A DNA stretch of 64,000 nt from Euryodendron excelsum (taxonomy: Eukaryota; Streptophyta; Magnoliopsida; Ericales; Pentaphylacaceae), in NCBI GenBank assembly GCA_033060915.1, contig CM065378.1, positions 4,783,501 through 4,847,500 on the forward strand, written 5' to 3'. The stretch's first letter is position 1, and each line of letters opens with the position of its first letter. Positions 509 through 29,488 of this stretch are shown one piece after another. A program made the position numbers and the translations under genes. A model generated the notes under the pieces. The model saw only the letters and a list, made by a program, of their open reading frames with translations, was not told where the DNA came from and made no database searches.

Positions 509-915
509 TTTTCTCTGTCTAAAAAGGTCTCTGTGACTCTGTCTCTTCTACTTCAAAAGGAGAGAAGAAGAGGGCAAAGAAAATGGGTTCTTCTCTCTCT
601 CTCTCTCTCTCAATATATCTATGATACATCATGAATATACCTCACAAATTCAAGGGAGATGAGAAACCCAGTTGTAAAGGGGATTTGGGCTTAGGTGTCT
701 TGACTTTCAAATTCTTCATTTTGATGATTTGAGGACTGGACTTTAGGTTTTTCTTCTTTCTTTTTGTTTGTTTTTTTTGTTGTTGTTAAAGATAGGACTT
801 TACTGAGGTTGAGTTGACTCATGATCGTGACTGTGATTGTGAGATTCTTCTGAGAGTAAAGAAACAGTGGTATCGGTGTGAAGGAAGCTAGCTACCCTGT
901 GGTCAGCATTAGCTA
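509..915 (-). promoter_or_regulatory. 5' leader and upstream region of the ankyrin gene
   Basis: This is all that remains of the gene's own upstream sequence before the MULE target duplication (907-915). It contains a CT/GA dinucleotide run at about 592-611, common in plant 5' leaders, and an AT-rich TATATT-like stretch near 612-620 that could be a core promoter. The transcription start cannot be fixed from sequence. The sequence that was originally further upstream should now continue after 23616. Confidence 0.45.
907..915. repeat. 9-bp target-site duplication, left copy (MULE)
   Basis: CATTAGCTA occurs here and again at 23608-23616, directly outside the two inverted ends of the element at 916-23607. 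A 9-bp duplication is the hallmark of Mutator-like transposition. Confidence 0.88.
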
Positions 916-1020
916 GGGTTTTTTCTCAAAATAAGTGTTTTGTAAATATTTTTTTTTTTAAAATAATCAAATACGAAAGGTTATGCCTAAAATAAGGTAA
1001 AACATAATTTTAGATTGCAT
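916..1020 (+). repeat. MULE terminal inverted repeat, left
   Basis: About 80-105 bp match the reverse complement of 23500-23607, with AAGTGTTTTGTAAA and AAAGGTTAT as shared blocks and small indels in the T-runs. Similarity fades after about 100 bp, so the inner border is approximate. Confidence 0.8.
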
Positions 1021-2181
1021 TTTTAAAATTTAAAATTACATTTTTTAAAAAGGCCAAAAAGTGAGAAAAAAAAAGTGTTGCATTTTCTCCCTTCCATCCG
1101 TAAACAAAAATTTCCCCCCCTTCCGGGTCTATTTTTATAATGCTACTATTGTTGCCTCCCCGAGTCTATATTTATAGTGTTACTATTTTTTTATTTCTTT
1201 CTTTTGTAGGCACCCCACTTTATGTTGAAATTTTTATTATAAAATAAAATAATTATTTGATTTGTAATATTAGAAAAGACAATTGATATTCTAAAAGTTT
1301 GTCCTTTAGTGAATTTGGGTGAATAATGATTATATCCTAAACGTCATGTTAATTTAAAAATTAAATTCCTGTAAAAGATAAACATTAAAAATTCAGGAAT
1401 CACTACTATTTCACTTCTTGTTTTAATGTTTTGTTTACTCATTTTTTTTGGGATAAAATAAAATTCAAAGAAATATATTATAGCTCTATTCAAGAAAATT
1501 AAACCAAAAAATTGACAAAAAAAAAAACTTGTACTTTATACTTTAGTCACAAGATAAGATTGAAATAATGAAATATTTTTAATAGCAATTTTATCCTCTT
1601 TCTCTCTCTTTTTTTAAATTGATTTATTCTTCCTTAGTAATGAGAGTTTCTAAATTCATTCATGTGTAATTTTTGTGGTGCTCCATGCAAATTCTGTGAT
1701 ATTTCACATTCTATTCCATCAGAAAGGTTAGTGCTTCACGTTGATTGTCCAAAAATTAAAAAAAATTTAACCAAGTGAAGGATAAACAAGAGCATGCGAT
1801 CTGAAGTTCAACCTAACTCATTCTTTAATTAAATTGCATTTTCAGTTGCTGCTAAAAAATGAAAAAAATCCTTGCGTTTTATTTTTTTTCTTGCTTTTTA
1901 AAGTTCTATATAGACTCATTTTATTTAAAAAATTTTATTATTTAATAGCTAAAAAAACATAGAGAGTTTTTCACGAAATTATATTTTTCAAACTCCATTT
2001 TGTTTGTCCTTCTTTTGTAAGAATAGAGATAATTTTTTGTGATGTCAGAAAATTCATAAAATTCCTAAATGCTGTAATTGTCTTAAATGAAAATAACAAT
2101 TTGTAGCATATAATTTTATTCACTAAGAAATAACTATGCAAACCATAGCCTTAGCCCTAATCTTAAAAACATAAATAAGCT
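1021..2181. other. AT-rich subterminal region of the MULE
   Basis: Very AT-rich non-coding sequence without a convincing reading frame. A short imperfect direct repeat (GTCTATTTTTATAATG and GTCTATATTTATAGTG near 1127 and 1165) is present. Nothing else is recognised. Confidence 0.5.
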
Positions 2182-2842
2182 TTATAGATCATATTCGTAA
2201 CAACACATTGGTTTGCCGCTAATAGAAAGGCTATTAGGTAGATAGTTGACAAAGTCATCTTCGGCTTCTGCTTCTGAGAAGTTTGAAAGTTCTGGGTCCA
2301 AAACCAACAACGGATCTTCAATCATTTCTATTATTCGTTGTGTTGGATCAACATATTCTGTCTTCGCTTGCTCTGTGAAATGATACCTATCCAATCTTCG
2401 TTGCATTTGATCAATCTCGCATTCCAGTGCTGTAATGACCTTACTGATAGGTGATCTTCTATCCCACAGCTTAGCTGAACGAGCCTTTGGGACACGGAGG
2501 CCATGCCATTGGCAATACATCTTTTGCTCATATCATTTACCGAGTAAGTCTTTCCATGGGAATCTTATGCATTGGTTGTCCATCATATCGGGGGGTAGTC
2601 GTAAGGATGCATTGCCAATGAAGATATGGCTGACTGAACCCATCATATTAGGCATAAGGATAGGTTTGTTGAGAAAGATATGTTTTCGGCCATACCATTT
2701 GTTACCGACTGGGTCTGTGTATGTACCCACCATAAGCATGATCTTGACAGTTAGGTTTCATCATGTTGCCGGTAGGATTCGCATGACTGGACGATGCCCC
2801 AAACAAGCCTTTTCGCTTCAGCATGTCTGGAGGTATAGTTAA
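2182..2842 (-). pseudogene. Unrecognised decayed reading frame in the MULE
   Basis: Two minus-strand frames are open in series. 2739-2533 encodes a segment with KWYGRKHIFLNKP and LPPDMMDNQCIRFPW. 2520-2182 encodes MYCQWHGLRVPKARS, an acidic stretch around FSEAEAEDDFV, and ends in YEYDL before a stop. A third frame upstream (about 2842-2740) reads TIPPDMLKRKGLFG. The amino-acid use looks like real coding sequence broken by frameshifts. No family is recognised. Because it lies inside the MULE and shares the strand of its other genes, it is probably an old cargo or accessory gene, but this is inference. Confidence 0.4.
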
Positions 2843-2869
2843 GCACTCCTGCACATAATCAGATGAGGC

Positions 2870-3418
2870 TTCAATTATGGTTACTTAATACAGAAGTCTT
2901 TACTTGACATGAAAACTTTGTGGTGCTGACTTGTCCAGTCATAGGGGATGAAGTCTTCATGTGAAAAGGAGTTAATGGCTTTAATTGACATGACAACTCT
3001 TTGGTGCAAACTTATCCAATCATGTTTTAGTCAGGGGCATGGGGGATATAGTCTTCATGTAAAAAGGGGTTAATGGCTTTAATTGACATGACAACTCTTT
3101 GGTAAAGACTTGTCCAGTCATGTTTTAGTCATGGGCATGAGAGATGCAATACTCATGTAAAGAGGGGTTAATGGCTTCAATTGACATGACAACTCTCTGG
3201 TGCAGCCTTATCATGTCATTGGTATAGCCTTGCCCTGTGAACGAATTGTATTCACGGGCATGCGAGATGCAACCTCCACGTGAAGAGGGGTTAATGGCTT
3301 TAATTAACATGACAACTCTTTGGTGTAGCCTTATCATATCACTGGTGCAGCGTTACCCTATGAACGAATTGCATTCACGGGCATGGTAGATGTAGCCTTC
3401 ACGTGAAGAGGGGGTAAG
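2870..3418 (+). repeat. Tandem repeats of about 98-123 bp
   Basis: The block GTTAATGGCTTTAATTGACA recurs at 2971, 3069, 3167 and 3290, giving periods of 98, 98 and 123 bp, with partial units on both sides. Units contain GACATGACAACTCT and GGGCATG...GATG blocks. The last two units gained an insert with GAACGAATTG and a CACGTGAAGAG (G-box-like) element. The array ends directly before a TATA-like box at 3430, so it may be an upstream regulatory repeat. Confidence 0.75.
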
Positions 3419-3429
3419 GGATTACTCTT

Positions 3430-3674
3430 TATAAATACCTCATATACGGGGGAGGAGGTAACACTATAAAATTGTGGCAATACTCTTCGATCATAATGAA
3501 ATACAATGTTTATGACATTTTCAAGGCTATAGGTCGTTAATGGGTTGTATACAACGAAGAAGTTTTTGAATACCCTTTGGATCCAAATAACGATTCACAC
3601 GTAACACTGTTAATACAATATTACGTGAGTTGTCACACAGAACTACAAGAACTGAGATTTTGATTGCAGACTTG
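3430..3674 (+). promoter_or_regulatory. Candidate promoter and leader of a plus-strand gene in the MULE
   Basis: CTTTATAAATACC gives a TATA box at 3430-3437 following the tandem array. The leader runs to GATTTTGATTGCAG, which looks like a splice acceptor, directly before the ACTTG target duplication of the solo LTR. With the LTR removed, the leader joins the sequence at 8559 and reaches an ATG at 8601. A near copy of the TATA context (CTTTATAAATATCTCATA) occurs near 9610. Function is inferred only. Confidence 0.35.
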
Positions 3675-3881
3675 TGTAAGCACCCCATTTTTGACCGCTC
3701 GGCGATCTCCACTCCGTCCAGACCTGTGTTCAAGTCATTGTGGGCATATTCCAATTCAAATTAACTTTCTAAGTCTAATCCCGTCAATTCATCGCTTCGC
3801 GGGCCCCGCCGGGCCCAAATAAAGGCAAAAGGATCAAAATGCTCTTGGGGGCATTGTTTGGTCTAATTCTAAAATTAGGCA

Positions 3882-3987
3882 CGTCTTTCCGAAGACGGTA
3901 AGTCCCCTTTCCAATTCCAACAGGAGCGTCTTTTCGAAGACGGTAAGTCCCCTTTCCAATTCTAACAGGCGCGTCTTCCTGAAGACG
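3882..3987 (+). repeat. Three 45-bp repeats, each with a CGTCTT hairpin
   Basis: CGTCTTTCCGAAGACG (3882-3897), CGTCTTTTCGAAGACG (3927-3942) and CGTCTTCCTGAAGACG (3972-3987) each form a 6-bp stem with a 4-base loop, followed by GTAAGTCCC. The period is exactly 45 bp. Related hairpins occur in the other copies of this LTR family. Confidence 0.85.
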
Positions 3988-5223
3988 GTAAGTCCCATTT
4001 CCAAGTCTAATTTCAATTCCAATTCCAATTCCAATCCTTCTCTCGAGACAGTTGATTCCTCGAGACGGTTCAACACGTTTTTCGAAAAAAATCTCTTCAA
4101 AATAGTAAGTCCCTTTAAACCTGTCGACCGGGACGAGACCCCAAGTCCCCTAGATGGTAGAACGGTCCACCTTTGGCGCCTGCTAGCCTGCCAATATAAA
4201 AATGTCCATTTAGGCATGCCTTTTGAGAAAGTTGATTCTCAGGCGCTAAGTCTCTTTAGCAGCTTCTCGAGATCAGGCAATCTTGGGAATGATCACGAAC
4301 CATCAGAGTAGTAGAAATTCTCACAAACATCACAACCGTCAGAGTAGCAGAAATACTCACAAACAAGTCGATATAGGGAATTGCCAACAAACCCCTGTAT
4401 CACGCGACCACTGTCAAAGTGGCAGAAACAGTCAAAACCCAGGTCAATACCAGTGCCTGCTAGCCCACTTCAGTGAAAAATGACTAAACTGCCCATAGGG
4501 CCATTTTTTGGCACGTTTCTTAAGAACACATTTGAATCTTCAGAACGGTAAGTCCAACCTTCCAAGATTGTCTTAAAGGCAATCCGGCATGATTAGGTGC
4601 CTTCTAGTCAGTTTTGAGCTAATTCCGAGACTTTCCGGTCAAGATGACCGTTTTGCCCCTAGGCATTCGAATGCCTCGGGAACCACACCGGCTCTGGGTA
4701 TCAAACCGGTAGCCTCCCGAGAATGCTTCTTATAGTGTTCTCAACTTTTCTTTATCTTTCCGGATCATTCCAAGTCAATTTCGGCAAACCCGGTGCAAAA
4801 TGACCGTTTTGCCCCTGGAGGGCCGGTCGCCTTTTCTAACCACACCGGCTCTGAGTATCAAACCAGAAAGCCTTTAGGAACATTCTAAATAATGTTTTCA
4901 AATCTCAAGTCTTCTTCCGGGACATTCCGGGTCCGTTTCGGCAGCTTTCTGGCTTGATTGACCGTTTTGCCCCTAACAGCCTAGTCAATCCTTCCGACAC
5001 ATCCTATCCTCATTTTTCAAGTCAAATACCTCTAGGATGCTATTCTAAGTGTTCCTGCCCTTTTTCGGCTCTCTGGGTCATTCCTGGCCTCTTCAATTCA
5101 TCCCCCCACTTTCCGGAGTCACTCCTAGTGAAGCCGGGCTAAAAATTACATGGTAGTCACTAGTACAGACACCCAAATCTTCCAAAGATACGTTGCTTGC
5201 TGACTTACAAACTTTCCTAATTG

Positions 5224-5332
5224 GCTTACGCCACTAACAGTGGTGTTAAGCCAAGAAATGGCCTGGCGTCAAGAGGAATTTTGTCCTGGCGCCACTGTAA
5301 TAGGCGCCAAGTCTATCCCATCTCTATAAATA
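5224..5332 (+). promoter_or_regulatory. LTR copy 1 core promoter: palindrome zone and TATA box
   Basis: Decayed GGCGCC-type palindromes (such as GGCGCCACTGTAATAGGCGCC) lie directly upstream of TATAAATA at 5325-5332. The sequence after the TATA box (ACAGAGTCTCCTCC...) is shared by all copies and probably contains the transcription start. Confidence 0.65.
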
Positions 5333-5929
5333 CAGAGTCTCCTCCAGCGTGAAAGGGGTCTGCAAACTCAATCTAAAAACCCTAATTCTTGATATACAGA
5401 GCTCGTACACTCCCAAAACCCTAGCTTCTCTAGGTTTTTCAAACCCTAGCCATCATACACCACACCCTAGCCTCCTATACACTCTCATACACTTATGCAC
5501 TAGCCTCCAACCCTCCTTTGAAGACTTGAAGGGCTGCAATCTGAAAATTTGAAGGTTGAAGATGAACTCTTGAGGATTGAAGCAAGACAAGCAAAGCAAA
5601 GCGTGCAAAGCTAAGCAAAATAAAGAAGATACAAGGTAGACTTCTTATTGAAATTTCCGTACTTCCCCCCTCTCTCTTCTCTCTCCTAACTCACTTGGGT
5701 TTTCTCTATTTTAATCCCCCATCTCTTCCCCCCGTTCTTTGCATGCTTGAAATAAGGAAACTTCCGGTCCATGTGTAGGATTAGACTATTGGAGGGTCAC
5801 CGTGTCGGGGGCTTTCTTTTAGTCTAATCGGAGACCACATGGTTTTAGCCCCCTTGATTATGTGGTAAAGCCTTAACCTTGTATGTTTACGACCCCAAAT
5901 TTGCATTGTGCATATCATGATTCTTGCAT

Positions 5930-8030
5930 TCTTCCAAAAGTCGTTTTCAAAGTCGTTTTCAAAATCGTTTTCAAACTTGTTTTCAAAATTGCATCAAAAT
6001 CTCATTTTTCAAAACTTGTTTTCAAAATCACAATCCTAGGGTGATTCTAGCCTTTCCATGGCTAGTATTGCTTTAGGAAAGTATTACATTTAAAGTGACC
6101 AATATGATCTATATTTTCAACTCCTAGTTGTTTTCAAAACCACTTTCTTAAAGTGGTTCAACCTCCTTATGGTTAGACTCGCTTTAGGAAAGTGAAACGT
6201 TTTCATACTTCCAAAAAACTCTATTTTCAAAAATTTCTCTTTCAATATGCTTTCCAAAAACTCTTCCTCCTAAAATTGTTTTCAAAAACTCTCTTCAAAA
6301 ATCTATTTTTAAACTCCTTTCCAAAATACTTTCCTCAAAATTCCTTTCCTAAAAAACACTCCCTAGGCTTCCTTCCTAGAAAATGTCTTCCTCAAAATTC
6401 ACTTGCCTAAAAATTCTTTCCAAAAAGTTTCTTCCAAAATCTCTTTCCAAAAACTCTCTTTTTAAAACTCATCTTCTAGAAACTCCTCTCTAGGATTTCC
6501 TTTCAAAAACTTGTTTTCAAAAAACACACTTTTCAAAAATCCCTTTTCTTAGAGCCCAAGTCAAGTCCTAGAACCTACAATTAGGAAGCCCTAATTATCT
6601 TTCTCAAAACATGATTTTCGAACTTGTCTTAAAATCTAGGTTTTCAAAATCTCCTTTTTCACATCCAAACTATACATATTTTCAAAACCTATTTTCTACG
6701 TCAAAACTATAGTCTTCCAAATCTAGGATTTTCAAAACTCCATCTTTCCAAATTCATGCCAAATCTAATCTCCCCTTTAGGAAACCAAATCAAATCTCCC
6801 CTTTAGGAAGCCAAATCCAATCTCCCCGTTTAGATAAAAATCTTTTCCAAATCTTAAAATTCAATTTTCAAATCTTTCCTAATTCTACCTCTTTCCAAAT
6901 CTTAACTTTTCAAATCTTTTCTAAACTTAAACCTTTCCTAATCTCAAGATTTTCTAAAACTCAAACTTTAAAACTTCCTAAATCCTAAACTTTCTAAATT
7001 CAAAACTTTCAAATTCTAAAATTTTCTAAGTTCTAAACTTCAAATCTTTCAAATTCTAAACCTTTCCTCATTCCAACATTTCCAAAATTTAACTCCCAAA
7101 TCTAGATTTTTAAATCTTTCTAAAACTCAAACTTTGAATCTTCCAAAAATTCTAAAGCTTTCTATATTCAAATCTTTCCTAATTTAAAATCTTTCTAAAA
7201 TTCTAAACTTTCCAAATTCAAAACTTTCTTAAGTTGAAACTTTCCAAATTCTAAACCTTTCTTAAACTAAACTTTTCCTAATTCAAAACATTTCAAAATT
7301 CAACACTTTCCTATTTCAAAATCTTTCTTAAAATAAAACTTTCTTAATTCAAAACTTTCCTAAGTTGAAACTTTCCTAATTCCAAAACTTTCCTAAGTTG
7401 AAACTTTCCTAATGTGAAAAATTTCTTAAACCTAAAATTTTCTTAAGTTGAAATTTTTCTAAATCAACATCTTTCCTAATTCCAAGTTTCTTAATCTTCC
7501 AAGTCCAATATTCAAGTCAATTCTTTTCTAAAATCTTTCCAAGTCAAATTCAATCTTTCTTTTCTAAGTTCCTAAGGCTAGGTTTCCTAAAACCAAGTCT
7601 TTCAAAACCAATCTTTTCAAATCTTCTAATAAAAGTTCAAATTTCCCTACTCTTCCAATTCCAATCCAAATTCCAATTTCAACTCGTTTCTAAATCAACT
7701 CTTCTATTTTCAATCGAACTCTTGTTCGAACTACGACTGACCTGATTCTTTCAAAATGATACGTAGGCAACCCCACATTTTTTAAATTTCAAATTTCACA
7801 ATATTTTTCAAATTTTTATTTCCACTATCTTTTTCAAATCTCCAATTCTACAATCTTCTTCAAGTTTTCAATTCCATAATCTATTTTTCTAATTCCAAAT
7901 TTCGATTTTCAAAATCTCTATTTTCAATTTCTAAAACTTTCCAATTTCAAATCTCTCTTATCAAATCAAATCAATTTCCTTTCAAATCTATTTTTCAATT
8001 CTCTTTTCTTGCACTAGCATATCATGCATC
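5930..8030 (+). repeat. G-depleted low-complexity tract in LTR copy 1
   Basis: For about 2.1 kb the plus strand is built from variants of CTTTCCTAA, TTTTCAAAA and AAATCTTTC, with very few G residues; several 60-base lines contain none or one. It lies between conserved blocks and is present in the other family copies (for example 12620-14520, 41640-43560, 61740-63240). Confidence 0.8.
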
Positions 8031-8600
8031 ATGCCTTTTAAAAATTCTTTTATAAAGTGGATAAGATTGAACATTAGTTAGTTGAAGACTCTCATAGGTG
8101 AATCTAGGGTAAATAGACATGTAGATACTGAAAGGACGGGGTAGGGTGATGGCTTAGTGCGTCTTCCCTACACGTAATCAACCTCCGAACCTAGGATCAC
8201 TGATTTCAAAGACCAAACGGAGTTATTTTTCAAAAAATGGCTTACGTATTTTCTAAATGTTGCAAAACAACCTATTTTCTTAAAAACCCTCTCTTGAGGA
8301 AATATTTTCAAAATCATTTTCCAAAACCCTAAGTGTAGTTTTCGGATTACGCTTAGTTTTTAGGTGACCTAACTCACTTTAATCAAGTTAGGTGGCGACT
8401 CCAAATCTTTTCTAAAAGTCCTTTATTCAAATCTATTTTCAATTCAAACCTAGTCGCACTCATTCTTCTAGGAGGGTGAGTTCTAACGAGAGAGTACAAC
8501 ATTTTTCCCACTTGTGTGAGTATTTCTCGAGTGTAAAAAATCTGAGCGCGACAACTTGGAAGCAGCCAATCTTTGAATTCCTCGTCGATTGGCAAGGAAT

Positions 8601-8747
8601 ATGTCTACCGATACTCCTCAGTTGGTGCAAATGGCATTGCATCATTTTTGTAAAGAGGATAATCGAATGCAAATGCGGTTGTGGCGACACTCCTTCAACG
8701 TATGGGCGACTGAGCGTGCTGAAGAGGGGTTAATGGCTGAGGTATAA
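8601..8747 (+). CDS. Possible first exon of an unrecognised MULE gene
   Basis: ATG at 8601 opens 48 codons beginning MSTDTPQLVQMALHHF, including CKEDNRMQMRLWRHSF, and reaching GCTGAG followed by GTATAA at 8742, which could be a splice donor (otherwise the frame ends at TAA 8745-8747). The leader at 3430-3674 lies directly upstream once the solo LTR is removed. No family is recognised and no second exon was found. It may be a remnant. Confidence 0.3.
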   Translation: MSTDTPQLVQMALHHFCKEDNRMQMRLWRHSFNVWATERAEEGLMAEV

Positions 8748-9022
8748 TTTTATTTATGTGCTGCCAATAATGAAAAATATCAATTTGATATTGACATGTT
8801 CGATGAAGATAAAAATCTATCAGGTTTAATGTATGGGGTTTATTGTGTTGTGTATCATGGTTATGTCAATTTATTTAGTATGTTTAGCATCTTTTTGAAC
8901 TTCATAATAAAAGTTGTCATTAATATCTAATGCATATAGCAACGTTATATATTAAAGTCAAAATACAAACATAAACATAAACATAATCATAAACAGTCCT
9001 TCAAACTGACATAAGTTCCCAA

Positions 9023-9464
9023 CTCACTCCTCATCAAACGTATAATAGTCTGACATATACTAGTCATTACTTAATACATTGCTGTGTTCCATCGGCGTGA
9101 GTATTTTCCCGTTGGCTTCTGCCGTTTCAGTAGCGAGTTGGAGCATGAAGTAACGACATCAGTGCATCAATATTTGGTTATTCTCTCGCCTTATTCTTTC
9201 TATAGCTTCTTCATAATTAGCCTTGTTCCTCCTTGGTATGAACTGAGAGCGTCGATGCGGTATTCGAATACCAATACCGAGATTTTGCAGATCTCTTACC
9301 AATCCCTCCTTCTTTTTTACCCTGAATGGTCACTCTTGTCGTAAGCCAACATAATACTCCTTCGGATTAGAATATTTTTACCACCAATACTCGTCGTGGA
9401 ACAGAGGTAGGATCTACACTCGAGCATGTTGGCGAGTATTTGAACTACCTGGACCTCCAGTTGC
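9023..9464 (-). pseudogene. Decayed small reading frame in the MULE
   Basis: One minus-strand frame beginning MATGGPGSSNTRQHARV stays recognisable for about 145 codons, broken by about five in-frame stops. Readable parts include KKKEGLVRDLQNLGIGIRIP and a charged, probably helical stretch YEEAIERIRRENNQILM. It ends near YYTFDEE. Two stops sit where tryptophan would be plausible. No family is recognised. Strand and position suggest another MULE-encoded protein downstream of the PMD gene. Confidence 0.35.
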
Positions 9465-10041
9465 CATTGGTTTACAATTGAGAATGAGAGATGATAATTA
9501 GAGATAACACACTATTCGAAATAATGACAACCCTAAAACCAATGCTTAATCGTAACTATAACCCTAATCTTGGTTTAGGGTTAAGCCTTTATGTAAGATA
9601 AACGGATTTCTCTTTATAAATATCTCATAATCATAACCACATATATATCATATAGTATTCATTTTGATTTGACCCCTATAATTTTACTGGTAGGTGGCTA
9701 GTACATAACCATAGCCCTAACCCTAATAATGGTCATCCTAAATGCCAAATTCCATACCACGACCTTATATATGTGTTTAGCTCACTTGCTTACTTATTTA
9801 TAACATTAATCTTGTTATATGATTTTTTTGCTATTGTACATGTCTTAAAATTCAATGTATACCTATGTTTGGTGAGTTCCCTGTAAAATTATTAGAAAAA
9901 TTGAAAAACGATGCTATACTACTTACAATAGATAATACATGCAAATAAAAGTGATGCCACGTCTCTGGGGGTAAAACCCATACAATAAATAATACTAATA
10001 GATAATAATAGATAATACTAATAAAACCCCTTAAACAATGA
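9465..10041. other. Non-coding MULE interior
   Basis: AT-rich spacer between the PMD pseudogene and the small decayed frame. It contains scattered CCCTAA and TAGGGTT words (9533-9590) that do not form an array, and a TATA-like copy of the 3430 context near 9610. Nothing else is recognised. Confidence 0.4.
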
Positions 10042-10204
10042 TTACCCTAAACGCCTCCCTGTGAGACATGTTTGAGCTTGTCGGGTTCTCAGTCCTGTAC
10101 GAACTCCCAAATCCTGCTACTCGTCCTGACTATTCTGTCCTCTATCAACACCCACCTCCGCCTACTCATCCTCATCACTCACTGCTGCCAACTCTTCATC
10201 ATCT

Positions 10205-10343
10205 TGATGAACCTGTGACGGCCCTGGCACATAAGTTGATGAATGGTAGCCACTGTGAAAATCATGACTCACCTGTGATTACCCTGCCCTATAAGTCGAT
10301 GAAGAGTAACCACTATGAAAATCACGAGTCACCTATGACGGCC
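10205..10343 (-). repeat. 60-bp (20-residue) coding repeats of the PMD gene, interrupted by the LTR
   Basis: Units of about 60 bp encode variants of SHDFHSGYHSSTYVPGPS. Two lie here and another at 15343-15410 on the far side of the solo LTR, with the LTR target duplication (CGGCC) falling inside the repeat. The 60-bp period keeps the frame within this block. Confidence 0.65.
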
Positions 10344-10840
10344 TGTAAGCACCCCATTTTTGACTGCTCGGCAGTCTACACTCCGTCTAGACTTGTTTTC
10401 AAGTCATTATGGATATATTCCAATCGCAACCAATCCTCTAGTCCAAATTTCATCTTTCCATCGCTTCGCGGGCCTGTAGGCCCAAATAGAGGCAAAATGA
10501 CCAAAACGCCCTTAGGGGCATTGTCCTTTCTTATTCCAATTCTAATCCCTCTCTCGAGACAGTTTATTCCTCGAGACGGTCCGAGTAGCAAAACTACTCA
10601 CAAAACCGTCAGAGTGGCGGAAACACTCACACCGTTAGAGTGGCGGAAGCACTCAAAACCCAAGCACGTCTCTTCGGAGACGGTAAGACCCTTTTCCAAT
10701 CCCTCTCTCGAGACAATTTATTCCTCGAGACGGTTTCAATCCAGGCACGTCTCTTCGGAGTCAGTAAGACCCCTTTCCAATCCCTCTCTCGAGACAGTTT
10801 ATTCCTCGAGACGGTCCGAGTAGCAAAACTACTCACACAA

Positions 10841-11014
10841 CCGTTAGAGTAGCGGAAATACTCACAGAACCGTTAGAGTAGCGGAAATACTCACTCAACC
10901 GTTAGAGTAGCGGAAATACTCACAGAACCGTTAGAATAGCGGAAATACTCACAGAACCGTTAGAATAGCGGAAATACTCACAGAGCCGTTAGAGTAGCGG
11001 AAATACTCTCAAAT
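10841..11014 (+). repeat. 29-bp tandem hairpin array in LTR copy 2
   Basis: CCGTTAGAGTAGCGGAAATA starts at 10841, 10870, 10899, 10928, 10957 and 10986, a strict 29-bp period. Each unit contains GAGTA-GCGGAAA-TACTC, a 5-bp stem (two units have GAATA). Flanking diverged units use GAGTG-GCGGAAA-CACTC and GAGTAG-CAAAA-CTACTC, where both arms change together. Confidence 0.88.
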
Positions 11015-11903
11015 CATCAACCCTGTCCGAGTAGCAGAAGTACTCAACCCCGTCCGAGTGGCGGAAACACTCAAAACCTAGGTCAATACCCATGTTTGTT
11101 AGCTCACTTCGGTGAAAAATGACCAGACTACCCTTAGGACCTTTTTCGAGACTTTTCGGTTAAGATGACCATTTTGCCCCTAGGCATCCGGATGCCCCGG
11201 GAACCACACCGGCTCTGGGTATCAAATCGGTAATGTCCCGAGAATACTTTTTATAGTATTCTCAACCTCCCTTTACCTTTCCGGACCATTCCGAGTTAGT
11301 TCCGACCAACCCGGTGCAAAATGACCGTTTTGCCCCTGGAGGGCCGGTCTCCTTTTTCGACCACACCAGCTCTGGGTATCAAACCGGTAATGTCCCGAGA
11401 ATACTTTTTATAGTGTTCTCGACCTTCCTTTACCTTTCAGAATCATTCCGAGTCAATTCCGGCAAACTCGGTACAAAATGACCGTTTTGCCCCTGGTGGG
11501 CCGGTCTCCATTTCCGACCACGTCGGCCCTGGGAATCAAACCGGAAACCTCTGGGAACATTCTAAATAATGTTTCCAGATCCCAAGTCTTCTTCCGGGAC
11601 AGTTTGAGTCTGTCCCGGCAATTTTCCGGTCCAATTGATCGTTTTGCCCCTAAAGGCTTGGTCAACCTTTCCGACACATCCAATCCTCACTTTTCAAGTC
11701 AAATACCTCCAGGACACTATTTTAAGTGTTCCTGCTCCTTTTCGGCCTTCCGGGTCACTCCCGACTCCTTCAAATCATTCCCGAATTTTTTGGAGTCACT
11801 CCTAATGAAGCCAGGCTAAAGTTTACATGGTAGTCACTAGTACAGGCGCCCAAATCTAGTCAAAGATACGTTGCTTGCCGACCATAATTGTTTCCTAAAT
11901 GGC

Positions 11904-12025
11904 TGGCGCCACTGCTAGTGGCGCCAAGCCAAAAAATGGCCTGGCGCCACTCCTAGTGGCGCCAGTATAAATTTTGCCCTGGCGCCACTGCAACAGGCGC
12001 CAGGCTTGTCCTCCCTCTATAAATA
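11904..12025 (+). promoter_or_regulatory. Triple GGCGCC palindrome block and TATA box, LTR copy 2
   Basis: Three palindromes occur in a row: TGGCGCCACTGCTAGTGGCG (from 11904), CTGGCGCCACTCCTAGTGGC (from 11941) and CTGGCGCCACTGCAACAGGC (from 11979). Each has arms of about 10 bp around a short loop. The last ends about 15 bp before TATAAATA at 12018-12025. Position and repetition suggest protein-binding sites or a structural element of the promoter. Confidence 0.75.
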
Positions 12026-15000
12026 CAGAGCCTCGTTCAACGTGAAAGAGGTCTGAAAACTTAACCTAGAAATCACACAATTCGATACACAGAGCTCGAA
12101 CACCTCCAAAAACCCTAGCCTCCCTAGGTTTTCCAAACCCTAGCCACTATACACAAACCTTAACCTCCTATACACTCATACACACCCCTATACACTCATA
12201 CACTAGCCTTCAACCACTCTCTTAAGACTTGAAGAGCAGCCATTCAAAGCTTGAAGACAATCCTTGAAGACTGAGGGTGAAGATCAAGACCAAAGACCGA
12301 AGACCGAAGACTGCACGGCGCGCAAAATAAACAAGAAACAAGGTAGGCTTTCTATTTAAATTTCCGCACTTCCCCCCTTTCTCTTCTCTCTCCAACCCAC
12401 TTGGGTTTTCTCTATTTTAATCCCCCATCTCTTTCCCCCCCTTTCTTTGCATGCTTGAAACAAAGGGATTCCCGGTCCATGTGTAGGATTGGACTATGGG
12501 AGAGTCACCGTGTCGGGGGCTTTCTTCTAGTCTAACCAAAGACCACGTGGGTCCGGCCCCCTTGATTATGTGGTGAAGCCTTAACCTTGTATGTTCACGA
12601 CCCCAAATTGCATTGTGCATATCGTAGTCTTGCATCTTCCAAAATTTGTTTTCAAAACCGTTTTCAAACTTGTTTTTCAAAATTGCATCAAAATCTCTTT
12701 TTCAAAAACTTGTTTTCAAAACCACAATTCTAGGGTGATTCTAGCCTTTCCATGGCTAGGGTTGCTTTAGGAAAGTGTTATATTAAAAGCGGCCTTTTGG
12801 TCTATATTTTCAAACCTTGTTTTCAAAACCACTTTCTTAAAGTGGTTCTAGTCCTCTTATGGCTAGAATTGCTTTAGGAAAGTGAGATGTTTTTAATCCT
12901 TCTAAAAACTCTCTCTTCAAAAATCCCTTCCTAAAAATCTCTTTTTTCAACATACTTTCCTAAAACTCTCCTCTCCAAAATTGTTTTCAAAAACTCCCTT
13001 CCAAAATCTATTTTTCAAAATTCCCTTTTTCAACTCCTTTCCAAAACTCTTTCTCTTTAAAATCCCTTCCTAAAAACTCTCTTCAAAAACCTTTCTAAAA
13101 AAACTCTCTTTCCAAAATCTTCCTTCTAGAAATTTCCTCTCTAGGATTTCCTTCCAAAATCTATGTTTCCAAAAACACACTTTCCAAAAACTCCTCCCAA
13201 GGATTCCCTTCTAGAAAACCTTCGTTTCCAGAAATGCGTTTTCCAAAAACTCTTTCCTTAGAGCCCAAGTCAAGCCCTTGAAACCACAATTAGGAAACCC
13301 TAAATTTTCTGCCTAAAAACATGATTTTCAAACTTTGCCCCAAACCTAGGTTTCCAAAACCTCATGTTTTCACATAAAAAATATACATGTTTCCAAAACC
13401 TATTTTTTTACGCCGGAACTATAATTTTCCAAATCTAGGGTTTTTAGAATCTCCCTTTCCAAATCTATGCCAAATTCTATTTTCCCTTTAGGAAACCAAA
13501 TCAAATCTTCCCGTTTAGGAAACTAGATTCCGTCCTCCGTTTTTGGAAACAAAATCAAATCTTTTTTTTTGGAAACCAAATCCAAATCTTTCCTAATTCC
13601 AATCCTTCCTAATCCTCCACTTTCCTAAATCTTAAGTTTCCAAAACTTGAAAATAAAATCTTTCCTAAGTTTTAAAACACAAAATTCAAATCTTTCCTAA
13701 TTCAACCATTTCCTAATTCTACCCTTCTCTCAAATCTTAACTTTTCAAACCTAAGTTTTCAAACTCTTCCTAAACTCAAACCTTTCCTAATCTCAAGATT
13801 TTCTAAAATTCTAAAACTTTCTAAATTTCAAATCTTTCCAAATTCAAAACTTTCTAAGTTCAAAACTTTCTTAAGTTAAATCTTTCTAAACCTAAATCTT
13901 TCCAAATTCTAAACTTTCCAAAACTTCAAAATCTTTTCAAATCTAAGACTTTTCTAAACTCAAAACTTTCTTAATTTAAGACTTTCTTAAGTTGAAACTT
14001 TCTTAATTCAAACATTTCCTAAATTGAAAACTTTTTTTTCAAACCTTTCCTAAAACAAAACTTTCCAATTTTCTAAAACTTTCCTAAATTCAAAACTTTC
14101 CTAAACCTAAAACTTTCCTAAATTCAAAACTTTCTTAATTTGAAACTTTCCAAATTTTAAACCTTTCTCAAACTAAACTTTTCTTAATTCAAAACATTTC
14201 TAAATTCAATACTTTCCCATTTCAAAACTTTTCTAATTTCGAAACTTTCCAAAAACGAAACTTTTCTAAATCGGACCTTTCTTAATCCAAACATTTCCTA
14301 AATCTAATTTTTCTCTAAACCTTCCAAGTCGAGTTAAATCTTTCCTAAGTCTAGGTTTCCTAAAACCAAGTCTTTCCAAAATTAATCTTTCCAAAGCAAG
14401 TCCAATCTTCTCAATTTCAATTTCCAATCTCCTCTTCTAATCTCAAATCAAATCCAATTTTCAATTCAATCTCTTTCTTCCAATCCAATCTCTCTTTTCA
14501 AATCAATCTCTTTTCAATTGGACTCCGGTCCGAACTACGACTGACCTGATTCCCCCAAAGGGATACGTAGGCAACCTTCATAGGTGCGGTTACAACACTT
14601 TTCAAACTTTCAATTCCACCCTCATGGGTGTGGTTTTCAAAATCTTCTCACATCTCAAATTTCAATTTCAAATTTCTATTTTCAAATTTCTACTTTCAAT
14701 TTTCAAACTTTTCAATTTTAATTCTATTTCTTCAAATCTATTTTCAAATCAAATCAAACTCTTTTCAAATCTATTTTTCCAATTCTCTCATCTTGCACGT
14801 GCATATCATGCATCATATTAGTTTCGTTTTAAACATTCTTTTTCAAAGTGAATAGGGTTGAATTATAGTTAGTCGAAGGCTCTCATAAGAATCTAGGGTA
14901 GATTGACATGTAAGTACCGAAAGGGGGGGGTAGGGTGATAGCTTAGTGCGTCTTCCCTACACGTAACCAACCTCCAAACCTAGATCACTGTTTTCATAGA

Positions 15001-18000
15001 CCAAAAAGGAGTTATTTTTCAAAAAGGGCTAAATGTTTTCCAAAGGTTGCCAAACAACCCGTTTTCCTTAAAAACCCTCTTTTGAGGATGTTTTCAAAAA
15101 TCCTTTTCCAAAAACCCTAAGTATAGTCTTCGGATTATTCTTAGTTTTTAGGTGACCTAACTCACCTTAATCAAGTTAGGTGGCGACTCCGAATCTTTTT
15201 CAAAAGCCCTTTATTCAAACCTAATTTTCAATTCAAACCTAGTCGCACTCATTCTTCTAGGAGGGTGAGTTCTAACGAGAAAGTACAGTGTTTTTCCCGC
15301 TTGGGTGAGTATTCCTCGAGTGCGAAAAATCTGGGCGCGACACGGCCCTGCCTCATAAGTCGATGGTGGGTACCACTATAAAAATCATGACTCACCTGTA
15401 CAGAACTACCACCTATGAACGGATCGTAATTATACCCTAAGTCAGTCTGAAACATTACTGGAGAGACATAACGGGTTGGCCGACGATGTGATGTCATGGA
15501 AGTATCATGTGTGCCAAAGTATTCCTCGATAAGAAATGATGGTCTATATGATGTTGTCCCAGAACTTTGAGTGGCATAGCTGTATGGTGTAGGTGTGACG
15601 TACCCTGCACTATATCCACCATGAACGAAAGAAGGTATTAAAGAGGTGGATCAGCGTGCAAGGGTGGGATGAGATGGCATATCGTGTGGCACACCGGGTG
15701 TCAGAAAATTAGAATGCGTGGCATCACGGGTACGCCGTTGGTGCTGTGGGACACGGTTTGACTCCTGTAGTAGGAATAAAGAAGCCATGGCACATTGTTG
15801 TATGTGATAGATCTCCTGCATTGACTCTGTCTTAGGGAAGTCATATATAGCGCGTGTTCCCCTTTCATATACATCCGCCCATGCTTCTGCCTGAAAATAC
15901 AATTTAATGGCATTTATTATGATATCAAAATAAAATTTTGGTATTTAATATTTAACTGCACATACCATCAAATCTATGGTGCCTCCAAAACTTGAATAGC
16001 CTCTCTCTGTGCACCTGAGTGGATTCCCAATGTGGAGGTGAGTGATGCTTCTGTACCAAGCCATGTAAGGATCAACAGAGGACATAAGTCTATCATAAAT
16101 CTTGTTGTCAATTACACGGGCTATCTTGCGTGACCAGAGTTTTATGTACTCTACATGATAGTCACTTTAATCTACTTTGGTCCTCCCCCATCGATCCACT
16201 GCATGCAAGTCTCTCCTGGTGTTTGGATAGTCCGGTATGTCCTGTCTTATCCTAAACTGGCACATCACTCGGTCAGGTAGATGGAACTCTACAATTTCAA
16301 AGCACAAGAGAAGGACTACTGCCCTCCAAACCTCTATCCCAATGAAGCAATAACTGGATAAGGCATCTATATGGGCCTCATATGGGGTCCAACAAAACTG
16401 AAAAATACAAAACATACAATCAATTGTCATGTATTGTACAACCCAAATGTAATGAATGTAAAATGTACTATCAATGTATAACTTACATCATTGGGTCAGA
16501 GTCGGTCCAACTGATCCTTATACACAATAAGCACATGGGTGGAGACGTTTGTGAAGAGGAAATCGTCATGCCACCTGCCCCTTAATAGTCCACCAGGAAA
16601 CTTGTGTTCCCCAATAATAAGTGGCTCCTGTGCAGGTGTAATGGAAATCGACTTCCGTATAGGCGTGATAATAGGGAATCTCTCCCACATCCAAATCTAA
16701 ATAAATCTCAGTCTCAATATGAAAGGATATGACATCGAAAGGTAATAACAACATGAGTAAAAAAATATTTTGCATACCTGTAGCAGTGTAAGCGAGCCAA
16801 TGAGCTCATAACAGGTGGGATGAACGGCGCAACGTAACCCCCTGTACAATGATGCAAGGATTGCACTACCCCAGCTAAAATTGCCACAAGCATTAAGGTC
16901 CACTAGTAATGGTAAGTACATGGGCTTGAACAAGGCACCGAAGTAATCTGGCATCATGACCTCGCTAATCTAATGAGTCTCAGTATACATGCCCGGGCAT
17001 GGCTTTGTACTGTGATTTTATCAGCATCATCTGCAAGTGCCCCAAATATCTAACTTAGCCACTTAAGCCTGACCAAACCTTTTTTGAAATATTTAGCCCT
17101 GGGTGCAACCCCCAAATATTGCATAATAAAGGGGCCCAATCTTACAGTGTTGACAGGTTGGAGGGTCCTGCAAAATGTTAATAAAATGGAATTCAGTTAT
17201 TGTATACAATATAAAAACTTGTATAACGTAATAAAAGAATGCGTGTATTTAAATAATGTCATGAAATAATTTGTGCAATTTATTGTAATTCCGAACCATA
17301 ATTGTTAACCATAATTGGAAGACTGTATAGGATAGAGACATGCTGTAATGTAACTGTTGCCTCCCCGATAGACAAGTGGAAGGTGTGTGTCTTTTGTTGC
17401 CATCTCTTTACCATGGCTGTAAACAGAGCATGATCGTGTTGAATCCTACCTAGGCAGTATACACCGTAAAAATCAGCGCGGATCAAATATGGACTAATGC
17501 GGGGGTGTACACCATCATCGAATATACCTGAGTCTCCTCGACGACAATTAATAGGCTGATCACATTGTCAATCAAATAAAAAGAATGCATTAAAAAATGG
17601 TAGTAGTTATTCAAAAAAAAAAAAAGTAAATGTGAACTATATTTTATATTACATACTTGTTCTATAAAACTTATCCCATGGTCCCACACGACCTGTGAGT
17701 GATGAATCTCCTGTAAGGTAAGTACACTAGGATCAATGAGCCCACTAGGTCGTCGTTGTGATGCCATAGTGTATGATAGATCTAGAACGTCAGTAAAATG
17801 CAATGCACCGAACCAAAAAGCAACTAGCTGTTAATATAACATAGATGAGAGAAATTCAATATACTTACAATCATATTTATGGTACTTTTGCAATGTTACT
17901 AAGTGAGATTGTTATTTTTCACCTTAATGGCTTTTTTTGTTCTTATCAAAGGCGGTAAAAGACTGTGACCATTAGTTAATTTTGTTATTCAAACTCTGTT

Positions 18001-18270
18001 AGAGTAATGGAGTGGGTTGTGAAGTATGTGTACTCGAGTTGGTTATGTTTTACTTTATCTTTCTCCTTTATTGATTTCTTCTTTATTATAGAAGGAGACA
18101 GTCACACAGAAGGTCTTATGGACTACAATCCATTATTGGTTTGCACAGAGTGATCCCTAGTAATGTAACATACATGAAATAATTGGTCTACACCTTTAGT
18201 TAGAATGACAAGTTTGCGTATTTTGAATATGTGTATCAAATACAAATGGATTACGTACATGTACTATTCT

Positions 18271-21057
18271 CTAATGTTCTCGTCTCCTGTTTGGATATCG
18301 GCGTCTGTTATAACCAGGCTCGTTGCATAAACTACACTTGAACGTTTGTTTTTGCCTCGATTTGTCTATTTCGTTACGAATTCTACTATGTTTTAGACGG
18401 CCTTTTTGGGCTATACGTTTTCAAAGGGGGTTTGGGAGGATAGTAAGCACTTCATAAGAAGGCCAGTAGTCCTCCATTAACATTGGCGCAAACAGAATCC
18501 TGTACACACGGGCATATGCTTCTATAGTGTAGTACGGGTCAAATAAAAACCAAGGTTGCTTTCTGACAGCTGTAGTAGCAGCAAGCATGTGGGAGCAAGG
18601 GAGGTGATATATAACCCATTTTCTGCATGTACAGTTGAGCGGGAAAAGTTACACAGAATGTAGATGACCACCTTTAGTCCCCTTTCTGCTGGTCAGCATA
18701 TTGACAGACACTATGTCCCTGTATAACAAGTATCGAAATGTCATACATTTAGCTGAACGCCATTACAATAGCAATTTAATGATGATGACGGTATAAATAT
18801 ATATTACCTATTACAAACTATGATAGTATGACCGGCTACTTTTTCGCTCCACTTCTGAAATATTTCACGCACTTCTAATAGGCATGCATGGCCATTCTTC
18901 ACGTCACATTGTATCTCACCACATCGTGTAACAAAACTCTCAATAAGACAGTAATAAGTAACATGCACAGATGCAGTGATGGGCAAGTTACGAGCACCTA
19001 CTATCTCACTATTGTAGCTTTCAAAGTTATTAGTTGATGTGATCCCCCAACGAAAGCTGCCATCATGAGCAAATGTCCACTTAGTAATATCCTCCCCCAT
19101 TAGTTTATTATAACAAGGTTCACATCTCTTCTTAATTCTTTCCATTATAGTGTTAAACTTTCGCAATTGACAAGCTATGCTAGCAGCCCACACCAAGTCC
19201 TTAATCCTTATCATATTGAGGTTTTTATTCGTAGTTACTGTGAAAGTATCGAAGGCAATACCTATGAAAACCAGGGGGTTGATTATCGCTTGGATGTTCT
19301 CATATTCGATCAATGACATTTAGTAGGCCCCCGTGACAGTCCGATAGTATGGTGACACGTTCCCTACTAGGGACAATGACTTGTCTCACCAAGTTGATAA
19401 ACCATGACCAGTTATGTGTGTCCTCAACCTTGACAATGGAAAAGGCTAAGGGATAATTTCTACTCCTAGCAGTGACCCCCATAGCAATAAGCATGACACC
19501 CTTATATTTTTCATAAAGGTGGGTGCCATCAACTGATATAATTGGTAGACAGTGCTTGAAACCATTAATACATGGGCTGAATACCCAAAATACTAGATCA
19601 AACACGACCATGTCATGGACATCCTGATTGAAGAACTTTAACATTTGGATTGTTCCAGAGTTTCTTGAATGCAATGCCAACAAATATTTGGGAAGTTTTG
19701 CAAACAACTGCTTCCAATTGCCAAATACCATCTCTATGGTTTTTGTTCTTGCCATCCATGCTTTCTTGTATGACACGGAGTGGTGAAAATGTGTTTTTAC
19801 ATCTTCCATTATGGACGTGATCTTTCAATTAGGATCTTTCTGTACAAAAACAATGCAATTTAAGTACATTACATGAACTTCTTATATGACAAACTAATCA
19901 GTTATTGTGATAAAATCTGAATCAAAGTTAAACTCACTGTTACTTGTCCCACAATAACATTTGTAATGAAGTTCGCATCTAGGTTACGATGGCCCATATT
20001 TGGCATCCCATACAAACAACTATGAGGCCCATTATATTGCGTAACCTCCCATATCTCATATCTCATATCTTTTGGTGGACACACGAAGCATCCAAAGGTA
20101 ATCGTGTGCACACTTCGCTTTAAATAGTTTCATAGTTAATTTAACAACTGAATACTCCTTGTTGTTGTGCAAGTGATATGATGTGCATGCATTTTTCACA
20201 ACTACCTTATCATTGAACAATATCCTCTTTTGAAAATTAGGATTCTGCACATCCCATACAGGCCCACGGCAAAATTGATCCCTGCTAGGTACATGTGCAT
20301 CATATCCCTTCGGCAATGTGGTGAAATACAGAACCAGGATCTCTTGTTGTTGTTGAACATCGTCATCGGAATCGTTCATCCGAGCAACATCTATATGTTC
20401 ATCTAATGTTTCCGACTGTGTATCCAAAGATTTTACATTCAAATCAATTTGTATAGGAATAGATTGATGCCCTAATTGAACCATATGTTGCACTGGATTC
20501 CTCCCTTGATTATGTCTTATTGAAGGCCCTTTTGAAGGACCAACAATATTTATGGTAGGCCGATGTTGTGATATATTACTCGACCCAATGCCACAATCAA
20601 CAAATGAACCATGATAACCACTTTACTGCGTGCTTTGCAAATGAATCAGGTTACCATATTGGTCAAATTGTTGTGAATATGGCACACTATGGCCAAAAAT
20701 GTCCTGCCCCAATGTCAACGTCGTCGAAAAATTCTATTATGTTAACGTATCTCCCTCGTCCGATAGTACCCTTCCATACCCCTGAATGTCACTCCACATT
20801 CGATCTGTTGCAGGGTCCACATCTACTATTGCATTCTCCATTTCGATGTACAGCTCGATGCATTCCATCCATGGGTTTTTCTGTGGTAGCCGTAAGGCAA
20901 TTTGTAATGTCCGATCATCTTTGATCAGAACTTTTTTATATTTGATCGACCCGCTTTCATTACTATATGAAAATCTGTATATTATTTTCAGTCTTACATG
21001 TTGTCCATCCTTGCCAATCATAGGCATTATCATCACTTCTAGTTCAGACATTTTCAA
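18271..21057 (-). pseudogene. MULE transposase (MuDR family), decayed
   Basis: The N-terminal segment (21057-20737) starts MKMSELEVMIMPMIGK. 20493-20056 gives the MuDR-type DNA-binding domain (LFNDKVVVKNACTSYHLHNN, VVKLTMKLFKAKC), then YNGPHSCLYGMPNMGHRNLD. The DDE domain follows (19809-19300): ISVDGTHLYEKYKGVMLIA holds the first Asp and ILSDCHGGLLNVIDRI the second. A frameshift separates it from HRYCLRYFHSN and the conserved FAHDGSFRWGITSTNN and ARNLPITASVHVTYY (19319-18804). The SWIM zinc finger CTCRKWVIYHLPCSH and a knuckle-like CSLCNEPGYNRRRY end the protein before TAG at 18271-18273. Damage: several frameshifts, a stop before the SWIM motif, another after ILPNPL, and a knuckle that has lost its His and last Cys. 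An intron is likely near 18720-18810. Confidence 0.88.
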
Positions 21058-21099
21058 TTGTAACGGTATACTGCAACATGACTAGCATTTCATGTTATA

Positions 21100-22850
21100 C
21101 ATAATCCCTTCATCTTGATCTTTCATTATTTCCTCACCCCAATACATCTATCCATTATTACACCTATTTTGATATAATCACGCAAATACATCATACATTT
21201 ACTTGAAGGGAAAATATCCTATAATTTATTAAAATTTTATTACACTTTTTTAACATTGACTACAAATTATTTATAGTTCTATTACTTTAAACTAATCGGT
21301 TATTTATCCATTTTATACTTAAAATTATTTACTACAAATTACTTTATACAATATTGTCTTTTTATTTAACAATACTTAAACCAATTAATAATTATTTTTG
21401 CCATTTAATTACTAATTATTAAAAGATTTTGCATATTAATTATATCTATTTTATATTTTTTTTATAATTCTATTACTAAAATAATCTACATATTAATATA
21501 GAAAATTTGAATTATGACATCATAAATAGCATTAACAATACTTGTTTTACTAATAATTATTCTTCGCATTTTATAACATTTTATTACTAATTAGTAAAAC
21601 ATTTTAAATTTTTCTTAATTTATTATTCATTATTTTTACTTAACCGTTAGAACAATTTTAAATTTATATAGTTAAATAAAAATATTAATTATTTTTAGTT
21701 CTATTACTTTAAGGTAATCTATTTTTTTTTACATTTTATACTTAAAATTATTTATTGCAAATTACTTTATAAAATATTGTATATTAATTTAACAATAATT
21801 ATTAAATAGATTAAAAATTATTACATATTAAACAATAATTAGCCTGGCATTAAACAATAATTAAACATTCGATTGTCTAGTATTTACAGTTCTATTATTT
21901 CTAATTACTAACCTTGTTTTTCTTATTTTATCCTTAAATTTTTTCAGCTCAAATTCCTTTATGAAATTACTACATATTAAAAAATAATTAAAAAGATTAA
22001 AAATTATTTCACCCATCTCATTGGTAATTAGCATGGCATCCTAAACATTACTTATATCTATTTTCTAGTCTTTATAGTTCTATTATTTATAATTACTAAC
22101 CTGTTTTTTCTCATTTTATCCTTAAATTTATTCACTAAATATTACTTCATGAAATTACTACATATTAACAATAATTAAACAAATTACAAATTATTTCACC
22201 CATTTTATCCTTCAATTTATTTACTGAATATTACTTTATGAAATTATTACATATTTAACAATAATTAAATAAATTAAAAGTGATTTCTGCCATTTCATTA
22301 GTAATTAGCATGGCATCCTAAACATTACTTATATTTTTTTTTCTAGTATTTAAAGTTCTATTACTAACCTATTTTTTTCATTTTATTCTTAAATTTATTC
22401 ACTTCAAATCCCTTTATGAAATTACTACATATTAAACAATAATTAAACAGATTAAAAATTATTTCACCCATTTCATTGGTAATTAGCATGGCCTCCTAAA
22501 CATTACTTATATCTATTTTCTAGTATTTATAGTTCTACTATTCCTAACTACTAACTTGTTTTTTTTTCATTTTATCCTTAAATTTATTCACTAAATATTA
22601 TTTACTACAAATTATTTTTCTAATAAATATTGTTGCCATATTATAATATTTTATTACTAATTACTAGCACATTTTTAAATTTAATTATTTTACTCATTAT
22701 TATTTTTACTAAACTCTTACAACAATTTTGATTTTATACATTTAAATAAAACTATTACTTTAATAACTTCTAAATTATTAAAAATTATTAATAGATTTTG
22801 AAACAACATAATAATCATGGTGGGTGCGACACAAATAACAACTACCTTAC
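21100..22850. repeat. AT-rich region with ~180-bp degenerate repeats
   Basis: Over 85 percent A+T by eye. TTAGCNTGGCATCC-type blocks followed by ACATTACTTATAT and TTTATAGTTCTA recur at about 21839, 22027, 22305 and 22484 (spacings 188, 278, 179). CATTTTATCCTTAAATTTAT repeats with them. It lies upstream of the transposase inside the MULE. Nothing codes here. Confidence 0.65.
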
Positions 22851-23100
22851 CAACATAAATAAATAAAATATTTTACCAATAAAATTAACCAACTGAATCA
22901 ATACACAGAATAACGGAGTCCTTTCCGAAATAGCAAGTGCAACAAATATGGTTACAAATAAAACAATAGAGAGTTAGTAATCTGTGAATTGTATTATAAA
23001 ATGATTATATATTTAACATTACTATTTTTACTACTACAATATAAACTTTGTCTTTCTTAAATAACAACCTTATTGCCAAATACCTTAAAGTTGACTAAAA

Positions 23101-23395
23101 ATGGAGAAAAGTATGGGGGAGTGGGGGGAGAAGCTGCAATGCAAAGGAAAGAGGGAGGGGGAGGGAAGAGTTTACAATACAAAGAGAATAGGGACTGAAG
23201 AAGAAGACGGCGTGGGGAGGGGAGAGGGAAGAGCCTACAAAGGGAAGAGGGAGTGGGGGAGGAGAGTTGTCCCGGGAGGGGGAAGTCTGCAAAGAGAAAG
23301 TGGGGGAGGAAAGCTGGCATTAGGGGGGGGGGGGGGTTGTCTGCTGCAAAAGGGAAGTGAGGGGAGAAGATGAAGAAGACGGAGTGATATAGAGA
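23101..23395 (+). repeat. Purine-rich (GGA/GAA) subterminal block of the MULE
   Basis: The plus strand is almost only purines for nearly 300 bp, in GGGAGAGGGAAG-type words, with a G-run of about 14 near 23322-23336. Open frames on both strands are low-complexity artefacts. Confidence 0.7.
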
Positions 23396-23494
23396 GAGAA
23401 AACGCAAGTGGGACTTGCGTTTTCTCGCCCCCATGACTGTACTATCTTGGTACATCTTCAACTTTTGATAAAACGCAATCTTGGATTGCGTTTT
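23396..23494. repeat. Two near-identical hairpins near the right MULE end
   Basis: GAGAAAACGCAAGT (23396-23409), loop GGG, ACTTGCGTTTTCTC (23413-23426) is a perfect 14-bp inverted repeat. AAAACGCAATC (23470-23480), loop TTG, GATTGCGTTTT (23484-23494) is a perfect 11-bp one. They share AAAACGCAA but differ at the tip, with both arms changed together. Confidence 0.85.
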
Positions 23495-23499
23495 CTCTG

Positions 23500-23607
23500 A
23501 AAGCATAACCCACAATTGCATTTTATTTTATTATAGGAATAACCTTTTGCATTTAATTATTTTGAAAAAAAACTTTTACAAAACACTTATTTTGGAAAAA
23601 AAAACCC
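23500..23607 (-). repeat. MULE terminal inverted repeat, right
   Basis: Inverted counterpart of 916-1020; ends AAAAACCC directly before the 9-bp duplication. Confidence 0.8.
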
Positions 23608-23616
23608 CATTAGCTA
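23608..23616. repeat. 9-bp target-site duplication, right copy (MULE)
   Basis: CATTAGCTA, identical to 907-915. The sequence after it (CCTTTGTTGCC) should be the original continuation of the ankyrin gene's upstream region. Confidence 0.88.
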
Positions 23617-25341: not shown

Positions 25342-25349
25342 TAAAAAAT

Positions 25350-29111: not shown

Positions 29112-29164
29112 TTATTGTTATAGGGTCATAACTTAGCTAATTGAAGGGTTTCCGTAATTAACTC

Positions 29165-29455: not shown

Positions 29456-29488
<33 letters not shown>

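Follow-up and report, generated by a model that had tools for sequence, protein, structure and literature searches.

A Mutator-like element family of Euryodendron excelsum with transposase and plant mobile domain genes in fixed order and a predicted likeness to the anti-silencing protein VANC21

The stretch of DNA analyzed here (the window; 64,000 nucleotides of Euryodendron excelsum, GCA_033060915.1, CM065378.1) contains at positions 916-23607 a single copy of a Mutator-like element (MULE), which belongs to a family with a transposase and a plant mobile domain (PMD) gene in fixed order. We assume that the PMD protein of this family is likely to bind the DNA of its own element and likely to prevent silencing, and for this reading as a whole we estimate a probability of about 0.5. 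Inward from the right end, the order on the minus strand is tandem repeats, transposase with a SWIM finger, PMD gene and a possible third gene. A preliminary description of the window had placed a MULE transposase and a PMD gene between the ends, and MULE, SWIM and PMD domains were indeed all found there on the minus strand. The element is delimited and coded as follows:

907-915, left 9-bp target site duplication, CATTAGCTA
916-1030, plus strand, left terminal inverted repeat, matching the right end at 88% over its outer 87 bases
10043-10338, minus strand, PMD tail with tandem peptide units (by eye), containing stops
15348-17767, minus strand, PMD gene (PF10536) in several exons, with stops and frame shifts; first ATG at 17767 (by eye)
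18271-21051, minus strand, MULE transposase gene, broken; start and stop read by eye
21300-22760, tandem repeats upstream of the transposase, differing in unit number between copies
23521-23607, minus strand, right terminal inverted repeat
23608-23616, right 9-bp target site duplication, CATTAGCTA

The broken transposase frame matches PF10551 near 19542-19246 (E 4e-10) and the SWIM domain PF04434 near 18642-18567 (E 1.4e-05), and the PMD reaches Pfam scores of 111.7 and 50.5 bits against a cut-off of 34.9. The window copy itself can hardly be functional now, because both genes are interrupted by stops and frame shifts, and a solo long terminal repeat (LTR), referred to below as solo LTR 2, severs the PMD tail, with units such as DFHSGYSSSTY, from the remaining PMD gene.

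The fixed order became apparent from protein searches of the 1.06-Gb E. excelsum genome, which gave at least 244 PMD and at least 150 MULE-domain matches. Among the matches listed, 131 PMD places cover the main PMD exon, and at least 74 of these have a MULE transposase match within 6 kb (median 3.2 kb). In every one of the 74 close pairs the two genes share a strand and the PMD follows the transposase; random placement produced 0.2 close pairs on average and two at most (200 trials). Within 20 kb at least 81 transposase-PMD pairs were counted, one of them in reverse order. Close pairs were counted from matches, with the ends checked for individually examined copies, and the 57 unpaired PMD places among the matches listed are no proof that a transposase is absent. 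Several copies have transposase and PMD between one pair of ends, and many PMD exon matches in the genome are free of stops; the main exon is without them, for example, near C21:2.436 Mb and C3:47.81 Mb. That the MULE carries a PMD, as described earlier, holds, but the term "cargo" used at the time is too weak for a pair that recurs genome-wide and that two trees join with Actinidia PMD-MULEs, so that the PMD appears to have long been a resident of this MULE lineage.

The three best transposase matches are Actinidia rufa proteins that also bear a PMD (40-42% identity), followed by a Liquidambar gene model without PMD. In total, the nearest transposases are those of the A. rufa MULE-PMD proteins P0035-P0037, P0039, P0040, P0044 and P0053, with 33-42% identity. 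The MULE domain precedes the PMD in all five A. rufa proteins scanned, with SWIM in between in four, and the same holds for all nine PMD-bearing relatives from Actinidia, Asparagus, Heliosperma, Vitis and Aristolochia, whereas the order appears reversed in a Cuscuta relative (from the sequence, no domain scan). Transposase and PMD are annotated as one protein in A. rufa, whereas in the window the transposase is closed by a stop and the PMD starts about 500 bases further on (by eye). A quick transposase tree joins the window family with seven Actinidia rows (SH-aLRT 99), Liquidambar being next. In the PMD tree, which like the transposase tree contained no sequence named MAIN or MAIL, the family groups with six Actinidia MULE PMDs (95/92), its nearest MULE PMDs. 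Four Camellia PMDs join next (97/90), and the tree program gives a long-branch warning for this join. As both trees agree, comparison of these sequences suggests that the transposase-PMD pair predates the split of these elements. Mapping the PMD label on the transposase tree needs six changes, but the label "no PMD" is unreliable, since the near-identical proteins Vitis P0143/P0134 and Asparagus P0109/P0144 differ in their gene models alone. A search for host PMD genes with an Aristolochia PMD query retrieved 33 proteins, 32 from Aristolochia (query included) and one from Kingdonia.

PMD-bearing MULEs as such are in print. Groups 42 and 45-50 in Table 1 of Dupeyron 2019 (PMC6446971) share with our family the SWIM transposase, the 9-bp duplication, the inverted ends and the internal PMD, and group 42 likewise lists an unknown open reading frame. 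According to this table the PMD is antisense in several groups, whereas here it lies on the transposase strand in 74 of 74 close pairs. MULE PMDs have been described in rice, grasses and Amborella, with capture proposed twice (Ikeda 2017, PMC5418596).

The proposed function is based on the predicted likeness to VANC21. AlphaFold models of two PMD relatives have a predicted fold that matches DNA-bound VANC21 (PDB 9lnj), and the relatives of the window PMD are, on these models, predicted to share the VANC21 fold. Foldseek alone gave nothing useful for the PMD fold, and sequence searches of the PDB for the PMD returned no match. VANC21 carries DUF1985, whereas the annotated domain of the window protein is PMD; weak DUF1985 matches below the cut-off occurred in five of ten scanned proteins and in 6 of 28 in another set. 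Tandem peptide units are found in the variable part of VANC21 as in the window PMD tail. VANDAL21 is also a MULE and has variable tandem repeats upstream of its transposase (PMC5735166), in line with the copy-variable tandem repeats in the non-coding DNA at this position in our family. The YAGTATTAY motif array of VANDAL21, however, is missing: the motif occurs on neither strand upstream of the window transposase and zero times or once in seven other copies, so that we do not file the family as VANC21 or VANDAL21. In the eight copies examined, the DNA upstream of the transposase contains arrays of another motif, TAGTAAT[TA], most of whose units point the same way; we do not claim it as target motif, because it was chosen with the window sequence already in view, and the unit of any repeat would behave alike.

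VANC proteins remove the silencing of VANDAL elements (PMC5735166). Because of the predicted common shape, we assume that the PMD likely aids the escape of the element from silencing. The PMD protein would bind the DNA of its own element family, with the tandem repeats ahead of the transposase gene as its target, and this binding would remove silencing by analogy with the VANC proteins. An anti-silencing use of PMDs borne by transposable elements has been a matter of earlier speculation (PMC5418596, PMC8616336). VANC21 and PMD stand in adjacent sentences of PMC8616336 as two strategies, in a passage that draws no structural link, and PMC6419827 mentions both VANC and the plant mobile domain. 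In the literature searched we found neither a PMD-VANC fold link nor a paper with DUF1985 together with "plant mobile domain". More tentatively, and at somewhat less than even odds, PMD and VANC may form one structural family, in which the MULE PMD and VANC proteins would be long-standing, sequence-specific DNA-binding anti-silencers and MAIN and MAIL1 host members that use this DNA-binding fold in the opposite direction. The host proteins MAIN, MAIL1, MAIL2 and MAIL3 (PMD-C) have the PMD domain in common with the element (PMC5418596, PMC7156037); they are encoded by host genes, with MAIN and MAIL1 silencing transposable elements, whereas the window PMD is transposon-borne.

MAIN and MAIL1 bind PP7L and are required for the silencing of transposable elements (PMC7156037), and a counter-silencing role of PMDs has been proposed before (PMC5418596, PMC8616336). 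It is therefore conceivable that the MULE PMD is a decoy, which joins or poisons the host MAIN/MAIL1-PP7L silencing complex by protein contact and does not bind element DNA. We regard this as unlikely, since it leaves both the match to DNA-bound VANC21 and the variability of the tandem repeats that precede the transposase unexplained.

Somewhat less probable still is a PMD that is a captured passenger, which spreads along with the element but is useless to it, as in a Pack-MULE. Capture of host PMD genes by MULEs has been proposed (PMC5418596), the window copy is broken and selection could not be demonstrated. Substitutions shared between copies had no clear three-base rhythm by codon position (3 of 64 windows at p<0.05, with one window of another set standing out), and low dN/dS (medians 0.49 for 45 PMD pairs and 0.485 for 28 transposase pairs) was dropped as evidence for selection, because wrong frames and non-coding stretches give 0.39-1.11. 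Against a passenger stand the constant order in all close pairs, the agreement of both trees with the Actinidia elements and the many PMD exon matches without stops.

The element might also restrain itself with a silencing-type PMD that acts as a copy-number brake. Such a role would fit host PMD proteins that silence transposable elements (PMC5418596, PMC7156037) and tea PMD genes that make phased siRNAs targeting PMD genes (PMC10673657). We consider it improbable, as the existence of a set of near-identical copies points to recent spread more than to restraint, although no direct point speaks against it. It is a guess that some of the siRNA-making tea genes may be such MULE genes.

For a 2.8-kb PMD region of the C9 copy at least 46 matches were obtained in the genome, with 40 of 537 candidates scored; 18 other rows extend over 2,600 bases or more and are 91-97% identical, compared with 86% for the window copy. 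The composite PMD of the C9 copy scores 283.3 bits against PF10536. In the pieces compared, its 484 transposase codons are free of stops and its 488 PMD codons include one. The C9 copy is nevertheless not intact, because beyond these pieces the transposase has both a stop and a frame shift, and the PMD tail also contains a stop. Its left end is 77% like that of the window and its right end lies beyond the stretch read. At L044:3-1053, the left end is located just downstream of what resembles a cytochrome P450 gene (by eye).

Regarding the element boundaries, matching inverted ends about 22.7 kb apart within identical 9-bp repeats had already been described. CATTAGCTA is exact on both sides and has just these two occurrences on the plus strand of the window, and inverted alignment of the outer 87 bases of the ends gave 75 identical columns of 89 (88% ignoring gaps). 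The alignment score of 103 is beyond chance, with maxima of 47 for 2,000 random window segments and 35 for 2,000 shuffles. Target site duplication, long terminal inverted repeats and a DDE transposase with zinc finger are traits of the MULE superfamily, whose duplications measure 8-11 bp (PMC6446971). That the two ends come from different elements and the duplication arose by chance, for which one could cite its length of just nine bases and the AT-rich ends, is practically ruled out by a score far above 4,000 random trials, by a colinear copy elsewhere and three more long copies with both ends, and by one further copy without the right end that also counts against it. No empty site was found in the E. 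excelsum genome; the four matches were two to the window itself and two to the right flank alone.

Further copies with these ends, which the preliminary description had made a point of seeking, do exist. The left end has at least 74 genome matches (40 of 148 candidates scored). Among 17 other end pairs, nine are flanked by perfect 8-9 bp duplications, three by duplications with one mismatch and five by none, one of the latter having its left end outside the stretch read; end shifts of at most about 15 bases were allowed in the search, and two of the perfect duplications depend on a shift of 6-9 bases. The end pairs are not all independent, because AACAAAACA is common to two of them and CCACCAATG to two others. 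The colinear copy, C16 (13.6 kb), matches the net element nearly end to end at about 85-87% identity, without either solo LTR and with the flanks GAATAAGGA/GAACAAGGA. A C7 copy of 13.0 kb likewise has both ends, as do two C2 copies measuring 17.9 and 20.2 kb, and the right end of a C4 copy at 41 Mb is absent from the stretch read. A 6.2-kb copy (L043:339-6561), flanked by GGTTAGTC, contains PMD and third-gene sequence and no transposase. All long copies read have stops in both genes. Two C2 copies at 56.67 and 56.76 Mb (L036-L040), 90 kb apart, share the flanking AACAAAACA and are probably one insertion that was duplicated along with its surroundings. Also seen were short elements (about 1-1.4 kb) that share these inverted ends, several of them consecutively (L026, L027).

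The interior of the window copy contains the following additional features:

2215-2884, minus strand, 3' part of the possible third gene, no Pfam match
2940-3417, tandem repeats with 98- and 123-bp units
3670-3674, 5-bp duplication ACTTG, left of solo LTR 1
3675-8553, solo LTR 1, a later insertion of 4,879 bases, TG...CA
8554-8558, 5-bp duplication ACTTG, right of solo LTR 1
9165-9413, minus strand, 5' part of the possible third gene
10339-10343, 5-bp duplication CGGCC, left of solo LTR 2
10344-15342, solo LTR 2, a later insertion of 4,999 bases, TG...CA
15343-15347, 5-bp duplication CGGCC, right of solo LTR 2

Each solo LTR has its own perfect 5-base duplication, which indicates two separate insertions. 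Without both, the MULE measures 12,804 bases, in agreement with the earlier estimate of about 12.8 kb. Of the two or more unrecognised frames reported before, a weakly supported possible third gene is left, and no further Pfam match appeared in the stretches scanned. Pieces of this gene are conserved in up to 13 of 14 stretches, but every frame looks conserved at about 85% DNA identity, and stop depletion is weak.

In the surroundings, an ankyrin-repeat gene starts at 215-508 on the minus strand, with its ATG about 400 bases from the element, and runs away from it. An inverted repeat of 110 bases (24805-24914 / 25233-25342; 81% complementary, 318 bases between) follows to the right. At 29162-30136 the plus strand has a calmodulin-like gene, an open frame that encodes four EF hands. 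Transposon remains at 33407-35049 are presumably of the PIF/Harbinger type; they comprise minus-strand Plant_tran pieces and a NAM-associated frame on the opposite strand. Frames at 39190-39991 and 53321-53767 have peptides resembling those of both solo LTRs (for example CKHPIFDRSA), so that further LTR copies are likely there.

This element bears on what the PMD domain does and on how it relates to transposons; the ancestry of Gypsy-borne versus host PMDs was called "fully open" by Ikeda 2017 (PMC5418596). If MULE PMDs have the VANC fold, the anti-silencing role becomes testable by binding and methylation tests, and direct DNA binding by the host MAIN/MAIL proteins becomes a question as well, one candidate site being the "DOWN" promoter motif (PMC7156037). 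Furthermore, the spread of the PMD-MULE pair in large numbers within one plant genome is relevant to gene annotation, as proteins named "serine/threonine-protein phosphatase 7 long form homolog" may partly be transposon genes.
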